Shown piece by piece: positions 31,097 through 36,928 of a DNA stretch of 38,266 nucleotides. Position numbers and translations under genes: made by a program. The stretch is from Phycisphaeraceae bacterium (GTDB taxonomy: Bacteria; Planctomycetota; Phycisphaerae; Phycisphaerales; Phycisphaeraceae): NCBI GenBank assembly GCA_020831765.1, contig JAFIFY010000080.1, positions 1 to 38,266 of the forward strand, in the 5' to 3' direction. The first letter of the stretch is position 1. Every line of letters starts with the position of its first letter. The notes beneath the pieces are model-generated. The model was given only the letters and a program-made list of their open reading frames with translations, was not told the origin of the DNA and ran no database searches.

Positions 31097-31531
31097 TCAG
31101 GATGGCGGACGGTCTGTATCCATCGACGCCGGCGGTTGGTTCGTCTCGGGCCGCCCGCCCCCGGAAGCCCCCGCCCCCGGACCGGCACTCCCAGGACTCG
31201 TTACCCCCGGATCGGCGACCGCCGGATCGATCTCTCGAAGATAAACCCAACTGAACAAGCCCGTATCGTGGCCATCGGAAAACCGGATTCGGATCGCGTA
31301 ATTGCCCACCAGTTCGGCATCCACCGCCCGAAGCGGTTCGCCGGATGAAGCCGAAGCCGGCAGCACCGTCAGCGGATTTCGCTCCATCGATTCGCGAAGT
31401 GTCCTGGCATCGGCCGAAGGCGACATCCGACGAAGCAGTTTGATCGGATAGAAGCTTTCGGTGCCATCGTGCCAGACCACCGAAAGCCCCTTTTCCTTGT
31501 CAAGGTGAAGATGCTTGGGCTGTGGGGCCAT
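31097..31531 (-). CDS. DUF971 protein lacking the usual cysteines
   Basis: The protein has 144 aa from ATG 31531 (MAPQPKHLHLD). The domain ends with VGNYAIRIRFSDGHDTGLFSW, the DUF971 hallmark, and begins with LHLDKEKGLSVVWHDGTES. DUF971 occurs in gamma-butyrobetaine hydroxylase N-termini and near iron-sulfur cluster carrier genes, where a CPCA-type Cys motif is common. Here that position reads MSPSADAR, with no cysteine. A Gly/Pro/Ala-rich tail follows. The gene lies 40 bases after the PEGA gene on the same strand and 51 bases before sixA. A role in iron-sulfur work is thus doubtful. Confidence 0.75.
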   Translation of the reverse strand: MAPQPKHLHLDKEKGLSVVWHDGTESFYPIKLLRRMSPSADARTLRESMERNPLTVLPASASSGEPLRAVDAELVGNYAIRIRFSDGHDTGLFSWVYLREIDPAVADPGVTSPGSAGPGAGASGGGRPETNQPPASMDTDRPPS

Positions 31532-31571
31532 TGTGTGTGTCGGGTGGCTGGCCGAGATGCCCGGCCCGCGC

Positions 31572-32204
31572 TCAATCCTCGGTTTCGCGTTCCACCTCGC
31601 CCGGGGCTGGCTCCCGCACAGCCTCACGGGCTTGGGCATGCCCGGCCGGATCCGGAAGCGTTTGCAGGAGAAGCGCCCTCATCTGCTCAGCGCGATCGAT
31701 CAGCAGTTCCTCATCCTCGGGGCCGGCGCGCGGCAGCGTGAAGTGCCACGCCTGCCGACTGTGTTTTCTGCCCGGCGTCACCTCAGCGATCAGGTCCAGA
31801 CCGATGATGTCCCAGACCGGTGTGCTTGTCGAGGCCTCCACCCACAGCGGGTGATAACGCAGCAGATACTCCGTCTGTTCTTCACCGTCGCCCCGCTGAT
31901 GCACCTGCCCGGCATCGACCAGTTCCTGAAGCTCGGTTTCGCTCACGCCAAACTCGCCCAGCGCCACATCGCGCCCGACCCACCGCCCCTCATGGGTCAG
32001 CCGCACATCGTAAACCCCGTAGTGGGTAAAGCCGATGGTCAGCGGCGTACGGCCGACTTCCTGGTCATTCAGATGGACCAGCGCGCCCGATGGCTCGCTG
32101 GTGATGGTGATCGTTCGCCGAACACAGCCGCCAAGCCCACCGGCCACCGTCAGCAACGATCCAAGTAGCGCCAAACACAGACCATGGGAGCCAAATCCGC
32201 TCAT
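31572..32204 (-). CDS. PEGA-domain lipoprotein
   Basis: The protein has 210 aa. The N-terminal hydrophobic stretch ends at a lipobox, GLGGC (Cys27). A PEGA domain follows at about residues 31-72, with TITSEPSGALVHLNDQEVG and RTPLTIGFTHYG. PEGA domains are small extracytoplasmic beta modules often in surface proteins. The rest has no known motif and the C-terminus is charged. An extended -10 (TGGTAAAAT) lies just upstream, so the mRNA may start at the ATG itself. It heads a minus-strand trio with DUF971 and sixA. Confidence 0.85.
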   Translation of the reverse strand: MSGFGSHGLCLALLGSLLTVAGGLGGCVRRTITITSEPSGALVHLNDQEVGRTPLTIGFTHYGVYDVRLTHEGRWVGRDVALGEFGVSETELQELVDAGQVHQRGDGEEQTEYLLRYHPLWVEASTSTPVWDIIGLDLIAEVTPGRKHSRQAWHFTLPRAGPEDEELLIDRAEQMRALLLQTLPDPAGHAQAREAVREPAPGEVERETED

Positions 32205-32210
32205 TCCCGG

Positions 32211-32219
32211 ATTTTACCA
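32211..32219 (-). promoter_or_regulatory. Extended -10 of the PEGA gene
   Basis: On the minus strand, TGG TAAAAT (32219-32211) is followed by seven bases to the ATG at 32204, so +1 would fall at the start codon. No good -35 is seen, which extended -10 promoters can lack. Confidence 0.35.
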
Positions 32220-32353
32220 GTTCGCCCCATCGGACGCGCCCACCCAGAAAACCGGGCGTGCATCAGTCCCGGCGTGGGTCGAGGTACCATGGGGATGCGG
32301 GTGGACCGGGCGGCTGGCGGACTTTCGACGGCCGAAACTTGGCGGGCAGGCTG

Positions 32354-32381
32354 TTGACTTTTCCGATGCCCTGCCGATAAT
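32354..32381 (+). promoter_or_regulatory. Near-consensus promoter of the ilvB leader region
   Basis: TTGACT (32354-32359), a 16-base spacer, and GATAAT (32376-32381) match the sigma-70 consensus at five of six positions each. Predicted start is near A32388, one base before the ATG of the leader peptide at 32389. Confidence 0.7.
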
Positions 32382-32388
32382 TAGATCA

Positions 32389-32469
32389 ATGATCTCGATC
32401 ATGATCGCCATTCTGGTTCTATTGCTCGCCCTACCCAGGGTGCGGGCGATCACGGTCGCCGTTAGCTGA
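32389..32469 (+). CDS. Branched-chain amino acid leader peptide of ilvB
   Basis: The frame has 26 codons plus TGA (32467-32469). Five Ile, five Leu and four Val make up 14 of 26 residues; in codons 2-15 alone, ten of fourteen are Ile, Leu or Val (MISIMIAILV, then LLLAL). This is the composition of attenuator leader peptides such as ivbL in E. coli. It lies between a strong promoter and ilvB, with no Shine-Dalgarno because the predicted mRNA starts at or one base before the ATG. The end of the frame (codons 17-20) carries one strand of a stem that can pair just past the stop codon. A chance hydrophobic peptide or signal-like sequence is the alternative; position and pairing favour a leader. 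Confidence 0.6.
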   Translation: MISIMIAILVLLLALPRVRAITVAVS

Positions 32470-32538
32470 GCGGTCGACCCGCACCACCTCTGAACAGACA
32501 TCCGCTCATCGGCCGCGCACAGGTGTGCGTCAACCGAT
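32439..32538 (+). promoter_or_regulatory. Candidate attenuator: mutually exclusive RNA stems before ilvB
   Basis: Segment 1 (GGTGCGGG, 32439-32446, inside the leader gene) pairs perfectly with segment 2 (CCCGCACC, 32478-32485). Segment 2 can alternatively pair, as CGCAC-c-ACCT (32480-32489), with segment 3 (AGGTGTGCG, 32521-32529) with one bulged C. Segment 3 can instead join a local hairpin: ATCGG (32508-32512) with CCGAT (32534-32538) and CGCAC (32516-32520) with GTGCG (32525-32529). A ribosome stalled on the Ile/Leu/Val codons would cover segment 1 and favour the 2:3 pairing. No U-tract follows the last hairpin, so the output may be Rho action or a translation effect. A second long-range pair, GCTGAGC (32553-32559) and GCTCAGC (32632-32638), lies further down. 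Confidence 0.5.
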
Positions 32539-32783
32539 CCGGCAAAACAAATGCTGAGCCCGGTGAAAAGGTAAACTTACTGCCCTTCGGCTTGGTCCGA
32601 ACGGGGCGGCCGATCGTGAAAACCGCCGATCGCTCAGCCAGCCCGTGCGTCATTCATAGCTTTTAGAATCATTGCTGAACTTGACAAGAGCCTGATCACC
32701 GGACCGCATGGTCGCCAGATGGCGCCGCGGAAGCACACCCGGAAGGACCAGACCCCAGCCAGCCGAGAAGGAAATCCCGCAAG

Positions 32784-34565
32784 ATGAAACTCCAATCCCG
32801 CGACTTGAACGTACACAACATCGCCACCGATGCCGGCCCCGAGACCGACCGATATGTCGGCATGACCGGCGCTCAGATTTTCCATGAGATGATGCGCGAG
32901 CATGAGGTCAAAACCATGTTCGGCTATCCCGGCGGGGCCATCCTCCCGGTGTTCGATGCCATCCACGAATCGAAATACTTCAACTTCATCCTCACCCGCC
33001 ACGAGCAGGGCGCGGGCCACATGGCCGAGGGCTATGCCCGGGCGTGCGGCAAGCCGGGCGTCGTGCTGGTGACCAGCGGCCCGGGGGCCACCAACACCGT
33101 GACGGCCCTGCAGGATGCCCTGATGGACGGCACGCCCCTGATCGTGTTCGCCGGACAGGTGGCGACCTGGGCCATCGGCACCGACGCCTTTCAGGAGGCC
33201 GACGTCACCGGCATCACCCGCCCGTGTACCAAGTGGAACACCCTGGTCAAGCGTGTGGAAGACCTGCCCAAGGCGATCAACCATGCGTTTCTGATCGCGA
33301 CCAGCGGGCGGCCCGGGCCGGTGCTGGTGGACCTGCCCAAGGATGTGACCGCTTCGATTCTGCGTAACCCGGTTCCGGCCAGCACCCAACTGCCCGGTTA
33401 TCACGTCCGCGAGCTTGGCACCTCAAGCGAGATCGAGCGCGCCGCGGAGATGATCAACCGTGCCCAGCGCCCGGTCTTCTACGTCGGCCAGGGGGCGATT
33501 CTCTCGGGAGCTTCGGAGGTGCTTCGGGCCTGTGCCCAGAAGGCCAATATCCCGGTGACCACCACGCTTCAGGGCCTGGGCGCGTTCGATGAGCTCTCGC
33601 CACTGAGCCTGCACATGCTGGGCATGCACGGTTCGGCCTATGCCAACTGGGCCATGCACCACAGCGATTGCATCGTCTCGATCGGTGCCCGCTTCGATGA
33701 CCGGGTAACCGGCGATGTGAAGAAGTTCGCCCCGGCGGCCAGACAGGCCGAGCGCGAGGGGCGAGGCGGGTTGATCCACTTCGATATCGCCCCGGAGAAT
33801 ATCTCCAAGGCCGTGCCCGTGACCATCGGCGTCGAGGGCGATGCGCGGCGGAACCTCGAATTGCTCCTGCCCATGCTCGAGCCGCGCAAGCGCGAGGAAT
33901 GGCTCGCCCAGATCAGCAAGTGGAAGTCGGACCATCCCTTCCGATACAAGGACGATGAACGCCCCTACCACTTGAAACCGCAGGCGGTCATGGAGGAGAT
34001 CAATCGCCAGACCGGCGGCGATGCGATCATCGTGACCGGTGTGGGCCAGCATCAGATGTGGGCCGCGCAGTTCTTCCGCTACCGGCACCCGAGACAGTGG
34101 ATTACTTCAGGCGGCCTGGGCACGATGGGATACGGTGTACCGGCATCGATCGGCGCGAAACTGGCCCAGCCCGACAAGCAGGTGATCAATATCGATGGCG
34201 ATGGTTCCTTCCAGATGACCTGCATGGAGATGGCCACCGCCGCGCAGCACAATATCGCGGCCAAGTGCGTGATCCTGAATAACGACTTCCAGGGCATGGT
34301 CAAGCAGTGGCAGGATCTGTTCTACCAGGAGCGATACAGCCACACCGAAATGCACAACCCGGATTTCGTCAAGCTCGCCGAGGCGTTGCACGTCAAGGGC
34401 ATTCGTTGCGCCTCGAAGGCCGAACTGCCCGGCGCGGTCGAGCAGATGCTGGCCCACGATGGCCCGGTGATCCTCGAAGCGCTGGTCGAAAAGCACGAGC
34501 ACGTCTACCCCATGATCCCCGCGGGCAAGAGCGTGGATGACATGGTGCTGGGCAATTTCGATTGA
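32784..34565 (+). CDS. ilvB: Acetolactate synthase large subunit (fungal-like)
   Basis: The 593-aa ThDP enzyme condenses pyruvate to acetolactate (or with 2-ketobutyrate) at the start of Val, Leu and Ile synthesis. AAGGAA precedes the ATG. Catalytic Glu74 is in RHEQGAGHMAEGYA. The cofactor motif is GDGSFQMT with NN before the FQGMVKQW segment (Trp509). Several stretches resemble fungal Ilv2 (GRGGLIHFDIAPENISK, CTKWN, GVGQHQMWAAQ) more than E. coli IlvI, as recalled. Position 127 is Ala in GQVA, which also occurs in E. coli IlvI. No ilvN regulatory subunit is next to it. Transcription is likely controlled by the upstream leader. Confidence 0.96.
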   Translation: MKLQSRDLNVHNIATDAGPETDRYVGMTGAQIFHEMMREHEVKTMFGYPGGAILPVFDAIHESKYFNFILTRHEQGAGHMAEGYARACGKPGVVLVTSGPGATNTVTALQDALMDGTPLIVFAGQVATWAIGTDAFQEADVTGITRPCTKWNTLVKRVEDLPKAINHAFLIATSGRPGPVLVDLPKDVTASILRNPVPASTQLPGYHVRELGTSSEIERAAEMINRAQRPVFYVGQGAILSGASEVLRACAQKANIPVTTTLQGLGAFDELSPLSLHMLGMHGSAYANWAMHHSDCIVSIGARFDDRVTGDVKKFAPAARQAEREGRGGLIHFDIAPENISKAVPVTIGVEGDARRNLELLLPMLEPRKREEWLAQISKWKSDHPFRYKDDERPYHLKPQAVMEEINRQTGGDAIIVTGVGQHQMWAAQFFRYRHPRQWITSGGLGTMGYGVPASIGAKLAQPDKQVINIDGDGSFQMTCMEMATAAQHNIAAKCVILNNDFQGMVKQWQDLFYQERYSHTEMHNPDFVKLAEALHVKGIRCASKAELPGAVEQMLAHDGPVILEALVEKHEHVYPMIPAGKSVDDMVLGNFD

Positions 34566-34651: not shown

Positions 34652-36928
34652 TCAGTGGGGAGCACGCGGAACCTGTTCACCGTCCCATGGCATGGCCGGA
34701 ACCTCCTCGTCCATTCCTTCCATCTCTCGGATCACAGCAGGAAGCATGTGTGCCTCCATGTACGCGGTCGAACCATCCGTGAACGCCACAGCGGTGCCAC
34801 CACGGGCTCGAAGCATCGCACGGTCGTAGGCGACGGGAATGAACGGACTCTCAATCCAGCGGTCCGAACGAATGTAGACATAGCTGCTGTTCCTCTCGGC
34901 CCAAGCCCTGAGTTCAGCATTGGAGGCGCCTTGCCGGGGTGGAGTCGGCGGCGTGGGTTCATAAGGTGAAATCAGTATCAAAGGGTCCATTCCCCTGATC
35001 AACAAGTCGCCGAGCGAATCGGGAGTCGTGCGATTTTGCGCCACATGAATCGCGGTGAACTGCGCAATTCCTCGCGCGTTGGCCTGAGACTTAATTCGAT
35101 TGGCCGTCTGCCTGGCCTGGCCCAGCGCCGGTAGCGTCGTGCCAATGAATACGGGAAGCGTTGCGGTCGAGAGCCCGGAAAGCTGCATGGTCGCTATCTT
35201 CCCGGCCATCGGCCAAGATTCGACGGAGCGGAAGTGGAAGCCGTGCTCATCGACATGGAACGTCGAGACGGATGGCCCGAGTGTGGGCATGATCCGCGAG
35301 AGCGGCGGCAGGGCGATCGCCGGCACATTCTCGATATCGACCAGTTCAGCCATGCCCAACGGCAATCGACCGACGATCGACAACAGGGGATACGACCGCG
35401 GAAACAGGCGGGGCACATCCACATAGGAGAAGCCGGCCGGAGCTTCCACGGCCAGTTGGCGGCGCAGGGCCGTCAGCTTCTCGGATTGCCAGAGTGAGGG
35501 CGCATCGGCTGGTCGTTCCAGAACACCCAACAGAATCTCGGGAGTCAGCGCCACAAGCAGTTGATCGTCTGCAACAGTCCAGGCGAAGCTGAGCAGCGGC
35601 ATCCCGATGTGATGAATGGTTCGCTCGCCGATCCGGCGTGAACGAATCTGAATGGAAACGTCCTCGTTGCCCTGCTCCCGGGTCAGTTGTAACAATTGAA
35701 GGTTGGCCAGATTGATGGTCCTTGCCATCGCGTGTTGAAATCGGGTCGCATCCCGAAGCGGATTGACCAGCACCAGCCCAAAGGGGAACTCCCCGCCGAT
35801 CGTGGGGTCGGCGAAATACAGCCACTCGGTTCCCAGCGCGGCCAGAAGGTCCTGTTCAATGTTGAACCCCACCATCGCATTGACTTCCGTGAGGCCCTCG
35901 TTGAATTCCTGAAGCTTCTCAGGCTCAAGTTCGCCGGCCACGCGTCGGAACTCGTTGAGGATTCGCGAGGGATCCACCTGAATCGCACCCGCGACGGTGG
36001 CCCCGGCCGGGATGCTCCGCCAGGCGCGTTCGCTCAGGGGAGCGTGGTCAAGCAGCGCGGCCAGGCCCCGGCGTGGGGCCGGTGCTTCGACGAAGATGCG
36101 CGTGCCCCACTTGCGCCCATCAAAACCTGTCGTGAACGTCGCCCGCTTGATGCCATCCATACCCAGCGGCCCGGCCAACGCCGGCAGCATCATCACCGGA
36201 TCGGGCATGACGACATCCCTTTCCGCCCCGAACGCGGCCATCCGATTAAACTGGGTCAGAATGCCCTCCACATCGACATAACCCACCAACACGGGGCTTG
36301 GCAGCACGTGCCGCATGGATGCTCGAAACGGGCCGTGGGCGGATAGGACGCCGACGGGCTGAGCCGCCGCATCCGGACTGAAACCCAAGGTCGCCATGAT
36401 CGGACCGGGGAGGTCTGCCGGCGCGATCAGAATGTCGCCCCGGTCATTGCGATTGACCTGAATCGGCGCCGGCGCGCCCCGCTGCCCGAGCGCATCGAGG
36501 ATTCGATGCAAACGTTCCCCATCCTCGCCGGCGGAGATGACAAACGCGCTGTTCATCTGGGGCGGCGCTTCATCCGAAAACACAAGTCCACCCAGATAGA
36601 AGGCGACCGGATACTTCCAAATCGCATCGAACAGCGCGACCGCTGCCTTGGTTTCGGGCTCGTCCAGCTCCGTTCCAGCCCCACCACCATGCTTGAGCAG
36701 CTCGCTGAACAACTCAGGCATCAGCTCGCCGGCGATCTGACGAAAGCCGGATTGGTCGAGCAACTGTTTGAGATGGCTCTGTTCATAGCCGGGCCCGAGA
36801 TTCTTTGAGCCGGTCCACGCCACGTAAATCAGCGCATCGGAAGGCACGCGATCGGCCAAGGGCTGGGCCGAAGCGGTGTGAGATGTCAGCAGGGCAAGAA
36901 CAACGGCAATCCATCCAGAACGAAGCAT
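34652..36928 (-). CDS. Large secreted protein with pseudopilin-like segment
   Basis: The protein has 758 aa. A signal peptide is cleaved after about residue 21 (TASA|QP), and AAGGGG precedes the ATG. The body (about 22-590) resembles large planctomycete exported proteins of the DUF3352 type: PSDALIYVAWTGSKNLGPG near the start, then repeated alpha/beta segments. At about residues 598-620 LPALGQARQTANRIKSQANA looks like the segment after the N-terminal helix of planctomycete pseudopilins (LLPALxxAR.. type). An ending of MPWDGEQVPRAPH follows a stretch resembling their C-terminal region (FTDGSTAYME). This suggests a fusion or an evolved relationship. Its function is unknown; it is convergent with ilvB across the terminator. 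Confidence 0.75.
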   Translation of the reverse strand: MLRSGWIAVVLALLTSHTASAQPLADRVPSDALIYVAWTGSKNLGPGYEQSHLKQLLDQSGFRQIAGELMPELFSELLKHGGGAGTELDEPETKAAVALFDAIWKYPVAFYLGGLVFSDEAPPQMNSAFVISAGEDGERLHRILDALGQRGAPAPIQVNRNDRGDILIAPADLPGPIMATLGFSPDAAAQPVGVLSAHGPFRASMRHVLPSPVLVGYVDVEGILTQFNRMAAFGAERDVVMPDPVMMLPALAGPLGMDGIKRATFTTGFDGRKWGTRIFVEAPAPRRGLAALLDHAPLSERAWRSIPAGATVAGAIQVDPSRILNEFRRVAGELEPEKLQEFNEGLTEVNAMVGFNIEQDLLAALGTEWLYFADPTIGGEFPFGLVLVNPLRDATRFQHAMARTINLANLQLLQLTREQGNEDVSIQIRSRRIGERTIHHIGMPLLSFAWTVADDQLLVALTPEILLGVLERPADAPSLWQSEKLTALRRQLAVEAPAGFSYVDVPRLFPRSYPLLSIVGRLPLGMAELVDIENVPAIALPPLSRIMPTLGPSVSTFHVDEHGFHFRSVESWPMAGKIATMQLSGLSTATLPVFIGTTLPALGQARQTANRIKSQANARGIAQFTAIHVAQNRTTPDSLGDLLIRGMDPLILISPYEPTPPTPPRQGASNAELRAWAERNSSYVYIRSDRWIESPFIPVAYDRAMLRARGGTAVAFTDGSTAYMEAHMLPAVIREMEGMDEEVPAMPWDGEQVPRAPH

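Follow-up and report, generated by a model that had tools for sequence, protein, structure and literature searches.

The ilvB gene of this Phycisphaeraceae bacterium is probably controlled by a ribosome-mediated attenuator that senses charged valine-tRNA and that also governs valS elsewhere in the same genome. The element, which lies in the window (the whole stretch of 38,266 nucleotides that was analysed), is real and conserved. Comparison with related genomes supports its parts well, that is, the position of its promoter, a short frame, the valine codons and the stop of this frame, a small hairpin past the stop (H) and the association with ilvB or valS, and it supports more weakly a mechanism in which a leaderless start, translation of the frame, a competing hairpin (AH), a given direction of switching and termination by Rho would come together. 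The features of the locus in the window are as follows.

32354..32381, + strand: sigma-70-type promoter (TTGACT at 32354-32359, a 16-nt spacer, GATAAT at 32376-32381).
32389..32469, + strand: leader peptide frame encoding MISIMIAILVLLLALPRVRAITVAVS and closed by a stop codon, probably leaderless, with a start site deduced from the promoter.
32455..32469, + strand: putative sensor end of the leader, GTC GCC GTT AGC TGA, delimited by codon conservation.
32470..32482, + strand: hairpin H, GCGG (32470-32473) with CCGC (32479-32482) and loop TCGAC, directly 3' of the stop.
32454..32479, + strand: candidate competing hairpin AH, 32454-32463 with 32469-32473 and 32475-32479.
32483..32543, + strand: C-rich, G-poor stretch 3' of the hairpin, a candidate Rho-loading region.
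32784..34565, + strand: ilvB, encoding the 593-aa large subunit of biosynthetic acetolactate synthase (TIGR00118), the presumed controlled gene.

An initial annotation of this DNA had described a promoter TTGACT-16-GATAAT ahead of a leaderless, branched-chain leader peptide of 26 codons, 14 of them for Ile, Leu or Val, upstream of ilvB. Promoter and frame are indeed there: the ATG of the frame begins 7 nt past the end of the -10 box, the 26 codons with their 14 Ile/Leu/Val codons occupy 32389-32469, and the promoter is the only promoter-like site on the + strand between 31500 and 33500 (two on both strands, against 0.4 expected from shuffles). A short frame with valine codons thus lies between promoter and gene and would be translated; its last codons in the window read Val (codon -5), Ala, Val (codon -3), Ser and stop (codon -1). 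The ilvB product scores 786.6 bits against TIGR00118 (cut-off 538.35), the distance from leader to ilvB is 314 nt, and an ATG is found at a place similar to the ilvB start at 32784, 78-120 nt before one anchor, in 39/39 orthologues. The gene stands alone between two neighbours on the opposite strand, a PEGA-domain protein (31572-32204, -) and a 758-aa frame (34652-36928, -) without Pfam or NCBIfam match. By eye, a further -10-like box is visible in the leader-ilvB spacer of the window at about 32665-32670, and others are found in the spacers of L003, L004 and L006; these boxes read TAGAAT, TATAAT and TACAAT and are possibly part of a second ilvB promoter below the attenuator.

Rfam searches at the gathering score gave no match, T-box and other riboswitches included, in the window or in four related loci, and no family matched 32300-32800 up to an E value of 10. 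Four Rfam matches from a further search were unrelated and all far below threshold. A plasmid search with 32340-32800 gave no match either.

A protein search for ilvB covered 61 genomes, the window's own and those of 60 relatives; 45 had a match, and 39, the window's own included, have a close orthologue (69-81% identity when its own is excluded). Once L025, with only 37 nt of upstream sequence, had been left out, 38 upstream regions from the family and the order remained, and in 32 of these a short frame runs into the motif TGA-GCGG-N4-6-CCG(C/T), 101-314 nt upstream of ilvB, and has its ATG (chosen by promoter score) 6-10 nt past a -10 box. It is in this form that the conserved Ile/Leu/Val-rich frame, which the initial annotation had proposed to seek upstream of ilvB orthologues, was recovered. 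The motif is absent upstream of the other six ilvB genes (L005, L024, L029, L030, L038 and L039), four of which (L005, L024, L029 and L030) nonetheless have a short I/L/V-rich frame with a -10-like box near its ATG, as judged by eye. Before the ilvB genes of L029 and L030, both from family f6, GTTATTCGGCGGGAC replaces GTTAGCTGAGCGG, so that the stop is lost, and another small hairpin is possible; these frames are perhaps a diverged form of the element. In nine loci (L017, L144, L153, L157, L243, L026, L156, L162 and L018), a box like CCACGACCC, which resembles the loop and 3' strand of the element hairpin, stands some tens of nt before ilvB.

The element was then found well beyond ilvB. When 201 genomes of the order were scanned with R1, a covariance model of 47 nt, at least 74 matches at E <= 1e-6 were obtained, distributed, among the matches listed, over at least 46 genomes of the window's family and at least 3 of a sibling family, and many of these genomes showed a second match at the same threshold among those listed. 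The first 20 loci fetched away from ilvB all have valS, the valyl-tRNA synthetase gene, downstream (20/20), and of the 73 matches that were read, all but one precede ilvB or valS (G022 is a match at a contig end, and G141:C466 is not among the 73 read). At E <= 0.01, at least 108 of the 201 genomes had some match, and many weak ones (E 1e-5 to 1e-2) came from the order's other families. Neither the R1 nor the R2 scans revealed a second class of element for other amino acids, among the 73 strong R1 loci read. A pattern scan that left the second pair of the hairpin and the third base of codon -3 free gave 75 distinct elements, 46 before ilvB, 28 before valS and one at a contig end; earlier patterns that demanded matched pairs and GTT/GTC had given 72 sites.

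The window's genome has both copies. Its valS copy, on contig C191, encodes the leader MHRSHAYSFTVAVG with TATACT 6 nt before the ATG, continues after the stop with GGGG-TTGAC-CCCC, and reaches 20.4 bits under R1 and 35.6 bits under R2. A pattern scan of the same genome gave one exact match, which is the window's element, and with three mismatches 44 and 58 sites versus 45 and 44 in controls, that is, background. In family f1, the element is present in 18 of the 35 regions upstream of valS, a count that omits an L194 match inside a coding sequence; among the 17 negatives, 3 offered under 500 nt of sequence. In L193, L201 and others without the element, valS lies, by eye, close behind the end of another gene and may have no promoter of its own there. 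At E <= 1e-4, the R2 model gave a match in 12 genomes out of 298 from the class and in 8 out of 392 from the phylum, always in the window's family or one sibling family, bar one likely chance match (L268, distant, 30.2 bits, with no ilvB or valS alongside). Among the matches listed, confident ones are thus confined to Phycisphaeraceae and one sibling family. Since the element precedes a biosynthetic gene (ilvB) as well as the cognate synthetase gene (valS), it points to valine, the amino acid of the putative sensor codons, which both genes serve.

What the 75 elements share is their end, GTC-NNN-GTT-AGC-TGA-GSGG-NNGAC-CCSC. Codon -5 is GTC in 62/75 and codon -3 is GTT in 70/75, followed mostly by AGC, then by TGA (TAA in 1 of 72), then by G[CG]GG NNGAC CC[GC]C. 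This conserved core, at about 32454-32483 in the window, spans the stop codon and had not been singled out in the initial annotation, which had placed the sensor at codons 11-15 instead; what is conserved are the valine codons -5 and -3 and the hairpin after the stop. Since the downstream genes encode only 7.7% of their valines by GTT, this triplet would suit a sensor codon at position -3, although the presence of GTT there could be explained instead by pairing in AH. The 26 valS leaders, of 12-26 aa, have V at peptide positions -4 and -2 in 26/26, with 2.8% valine in their bodies. The bodies of 44 ilvB leaders are enriched in V (13.2%) and L (14.3%) relative to the downstream genes (7.3% and 7.2%), so that codons further upstream may add to sensing and ilvB may respond to leucine as well.

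The position of the promoter is conserved too. In a scan blind to ATGs, in which the best -35/-10 pair of each of 72 elements was taken, the next ATG lay 6-11 nt after the -10 box in 65/72 and was in an open frame with the stop of the element in 66/72, the misses being L011, L165, L170, L177, L188 and L189. A promoter score of at least 8 was reached by 94% of 71 frames and by 4.7% of shuffled upstream sequences, and a simple -10/ATG test was failed by 2 of the 75 elements (L033 and L165). A -10 box so near the ATG leaves hardly any room for a Shine-Dalgarno site, and this conserved spacing indicates that transcription probably starts at or beside the leader ATG. The comparison bears out the branched-chain leader peptide, which is probably leaderless, with promoter position, frame and stop all conserved in relatives.

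Hairpin H, in which positions 0-3 pair with 9-12 (0 being the first base past the stop), is the best supported RNA structure. In alignment A2, all four positions pair in 72/72 sequences, and no other two columns share as much mutual information as those of the second pair (+1/+11; 0.87 bits). A double change from C-G to G-C is seen in 21/72 and was matched in 0/500 shuffles; with the two columns left free, the 75 elements still show 53 C-G, 22 G-C and no mixed combination. When the tested structure (H plus three loop pairs) was slid along the alignment, at most 52.2% of cells were paired. On the valS tree, in which 8 of 26 rows are less than half filled and one branch (L207) is long, the swap corresponds to 3 changes, at least 2 of them forced by well-supported branches. 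RNAalifold predicts H unprompted, and H only; its folding energy in the window is -5.9 kcal/mol. A second structure, in which the loop GAC would pair solely with the first GTC codon, was rejected: 91.7% of cells pair, with zero compensatory change.

The stems drawn in the initial annotation did worse. One of them, 32439-32446 with 32478-32485, does exist here as a complement of 8 bp and is not common to relatives. For the alternative pairing with 32521-32529, the comparison covered the 3' hairpin strand against everything downstream in 32 ilvB elements (mean z +0.23). The longest stem across 71 leaders is 8 bp in the window, 7 bp in one other and 6 bp in seven, and stems of at least 6 bp occur in 12.7% of these leaders versus 5.8% when codon order is shuffled, a mild excess at most. 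The attenuator-like logic that had been proposed is supported in general, and not through the particular stems that were drawn. The search for a conserved third or fourth segment gave none. When five conserved segments were tested in 32 ilvB leaders for complementarity with the leader or the downstream RNA, the values were not marked (mean z -0.42 to +0.23, sem 0.16-0.25); three of the downstream values (-0.36, -0.38 and -0.41) are about 2 standard errors below zero, TGAGCGG being the case with z -0.41 and sem 0.18, so that there may be a weak effect between the conserved segments and the downstream RNA.

A candidate for the competing structure, AH, came from widening the pairing of loop GAC with GTC; it contains the Val codons, its loop holds part of the stop, and since AH and H both use GSGG, they would be mutually exclusive. 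AH appears in the minimum free energy folds of both 32389-32560 and 32455-32490. Across the 72 elements, it pairs in 83.6% of cells versus at most 51.4% when slid, whereas no covariation beyond shuffles was found (106/500 shuffles reach the observed level). Single AH pairs fail in 45, 27 and 21 of 72, the outermost being the pair that fails in 45/72, and at least 8 elements retain 6-7 of the 10 pairs. The minimum free energy fold is AH in 28 of the 72 elements, H in 17 and neither in 27, and between its ATG and the hairpin the leader is no more stably folded than shuffled sequence (z -0.10). Synonymous codon choice supports AH: Val codons at -5 are GTC in 59/68 versus 61/129 in leader bodies, and Val/Ala codons at -4 have a pyrimidine as third base in 60/62 versus 185/297 in bodies, with p-values that serve as a guide only since the sequences are related. 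We consider AH a candidate competing structure, less certain than H.

The mechanism that we propose would run as follows. Transcription would start at or next to the ATG of the short frame, and a ribosome would decode the common GTC and then the rare GTT valine codon just before the stop, while the RNA around the stop could fold either as H (strands 2 and 3) or as the competing AH (strands 1 and 2). With plentiful Val-tRNA, the ribosome would reach the TGA and depart, AH could re-form and the C-rich strand would be left open, upon which transcription would end early, most likely through the action of Rho, as no U-tract terminator is present. If Val-tRNA is scarce, the ribosome would halt on codon -5, cover strand 1 and block AH. 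A ribosome waiting on codon -5 would cover the RNA up to about the stop codon; H would then form and close the start of the C-rich region, and RNA polymerase would proceed into the gene, be it ilvB or valS. Were the ribosome to halt on codon -3, it would mask the first strand of H too, so that codons -5 and -3 need not act alike. We put forward tentatively the more specific claim that the element is an uncatalogued class of RNA: a terminator-less attenuator of about 30 nt in which sensor codons, stop and two competing hairpins overlap at the end of a leaderless frame, the switch gating the loading of Rho on the C-rich RNA behind it and co-regulating ilvB and valS in Phycisphaeraceae.

The output step of this switch was not seen, given that neither a terminator nor a conserved third or fourth segment was found. 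The 60 nt after the hairpin contain C 0.39 and G 0.20 in 45 ilvB elements (C minus G +0.19) and C 0.40 and G 0.23 in 26 valS elements (+0.17), compared with C 0.33 and G 0.24 (+0.09) in the last 60 nt upstream of 31 valS genes without element, taken from the window's and other families, and C 0.30 and G 0.30 (0.00) in the 60 nt preceding these. In the window, the 60 nt from 32483 hold 23 C and 15 G, counted by eye. A rho gene is present in the window's genome; further rho-like matches at G000:C154:17895-19067 and G000:C26:26364-27005 (398.1 and 76.8 bits) are below the family cut-off. A Rho-gated attenuator fits these observations, but so would any output that reads the position of the ribosome.

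It is thus conceivable, if not what we favour, that attenuation is ribosome-mediated with an output other than Rho, the stalled ribosome or the hairpin altering mRNA decay or the translation of the gene some 70-314 nt downstream. Such an output would suit the lack of an intrinsic terminator and of a conserved downstream partner, and the case for Rho consists of C-richness and the presence of a rho gene; in addition, the 80 nt that follow the hairpin fold a little more stably than shuffled sequence (z -0.47, sem 0.15), unlike an open Rho site. However, the stretch with more C than G starts right after the hairpin and exceeds what is seen upstream of element-free valS genes, and the 32 ilvB leaders show no strong pairing of the element with the sequence up to the gene start.

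It is unlikely that the switch is a classical one ending in a species-specific, weak intrinsic terminator, missed since its sequence varies between genera. This idea draws on the valS leaders of one genus, in which, after the element, six species (L182, L183, L247, L249, L250 and L251) have a TGCCG..CGGCA stem or a close variant, with greatly differing loop lengths, followed by GCGTTATCCTTA or similar, and on GTTATCC, which is present in 8/26 valS leaders. Yet only 3 of 71 spacers have sites resembling an intrinsic terminator, versus 0-2 in shuffles, and there is no U-tract terminator in 31500-33500 of the window, as the initial annotation had remarked; moreover, the 3' hairpin strand (strand 3) has no complement in all the downstream sequence of the 32 ilvB elements (mean z +0.23).

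Less probable still is a regulatory protein that binds the conserved sequence as DNA or RNA, the peptide being irrelevant. Some letters are near-invariant beyond what the pairs demand, namely GTT, TGAG and the GA of the loop, as such a binding site might show. But in 66/72 elements the first ATG after the best promoter opens a frame that the element ends, with the Val codons in place, leader length ranges from 12 to 54 codons, and the hairpin covaries as RNA does.

The fixed V-x-V-x-stop end followed by a C-rich stretch also recalls tnaC of E. coli, which reads free tryptophan through the nascent peptide, and a peptide could in the same manner arrest the ribosome at the stop codon on free valine. 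We hold this to be very improbable: the last leader residue is variable (S, R, I, L, M, A or G) while wobble bases are conserved, arguing for RNA and codons rather than peptide, and residues upstream of the leader end are not conserved among relatives. A frame that arose by chance, or one for a small membrane protein without a role in control, is suggested by the hydrophobic peptide of the window, which looks by eye like a signal or membrane segment, and is refuted by the comparison, since 74/75 elements precede two valine genes and the leader peptides of relatives, many of them non-hydrophobic, have only their end in common.

The attenuator proposed here would be a compact regulatory RNA, clearly supported by comparison, in a phylum for which the literature searched describes no amino-acid attenuator. 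Neither a planctomycete amino-acid attenuator nor a valS gene with leader peptide and attenuation was found in that literature, outside which lay most subscription journals and all bioRxiv preprints, and the term valS is absent from the text of PMC1262725 (Seliverstov 2005). The element suggests that leaderless translation can run an attenuator beyond Actinobacteria and Alphaproteobacteria and that the same element is used for a biosynthetic gene and for its synthetase. It would also be a very small system in which to study attenuation that lacks an intrinsic terminator, and the paired C-G/G-C swap of the hairpin would allow simple compensatory mutagenesis.

The principle of attenuation is known, and the compact, terminator-less form seems undescribed. 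In Corynebacterium glutamicum, transcription of ilvBNC is described as starting one nucleotide away from the ATG of the leader, with a need for the Val codons (PMC11857589), and attenuation by this leader, or ilvB-II motif, is reported to be backed by mutations (PMC11857589, PMC10272879). The likeness extends to ilvB, to a branched-chain leader peptide and to a start that would here be at or near the leader ATG (PMC11857589). As these sources present it (PMC11857589, PMC10272879), the Corynebacterium leader has several hairpins and an intrinsic terminator, whereas here there is no terminator and one small hairpin after the stop; unlike that leader, the Phycisphaeraceae element has its valine codons at the very end of the frame, is shared by valS and belongs to a different phylum. 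The ilvB-OMG and Leptospira ilvB motifs, proposed attenuators with frames rich in branched-chain codons before ilvB, are alike in combining such a frame with a conserved RNA (PMC10272879); the Rfam searches matched the element neither to these two nor to ilvB-II, motifs that possibly lie outside Rfam. Mycobacterium tuberculosis ilvB1, for which a 166-nt leader with an anti-terminator and a Rho-independent terminator is described (PMC13236596), also has an upstream frame rich in branched-chain codons and sensor codons that include valine before ilvB, and differs by that terminator, which the Phycisphaeraceae element lacks.

Regulatory codons near the stop without an obvious terminator were described for the actinobacterial cys and leuA leaders, with Rho suggested for cys (PMC1262725). 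These leaders are alike in both respects and differ in their amino acids, and in the LEU element, a pseudoknot, the base stem is described as pairing with the leuA Shine-Dalgarno box (PMC1262725). In Sinorhizobium meliloti trpL, a leaderless leader-peptide frame lies at the 5' end of the attenuator RNA; it resembles the present frame in being leaderless and differs in responding to tryptophan and in an attenuator that is also a separate small RNA (PMC10117765). Since leaderless leaders are thus known from Corynebacterium ilvBNC and Sinorhizobium trpL, this property alone is not new. The resemblance to tnaC, cited as a Rho-dependent case (PMC1262725), is that events at the leader end would decide the action of Rho just after it; unlike in tnaC, where the nascent peptide reads tryptophan, the codons appear to be the sensor here. 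Judged from its sequence and its relatives, the Phycisphaeraceae element thus appears to differ from the known systems in its size, in straddling the stop codon, in having no terminator and in serving valS.
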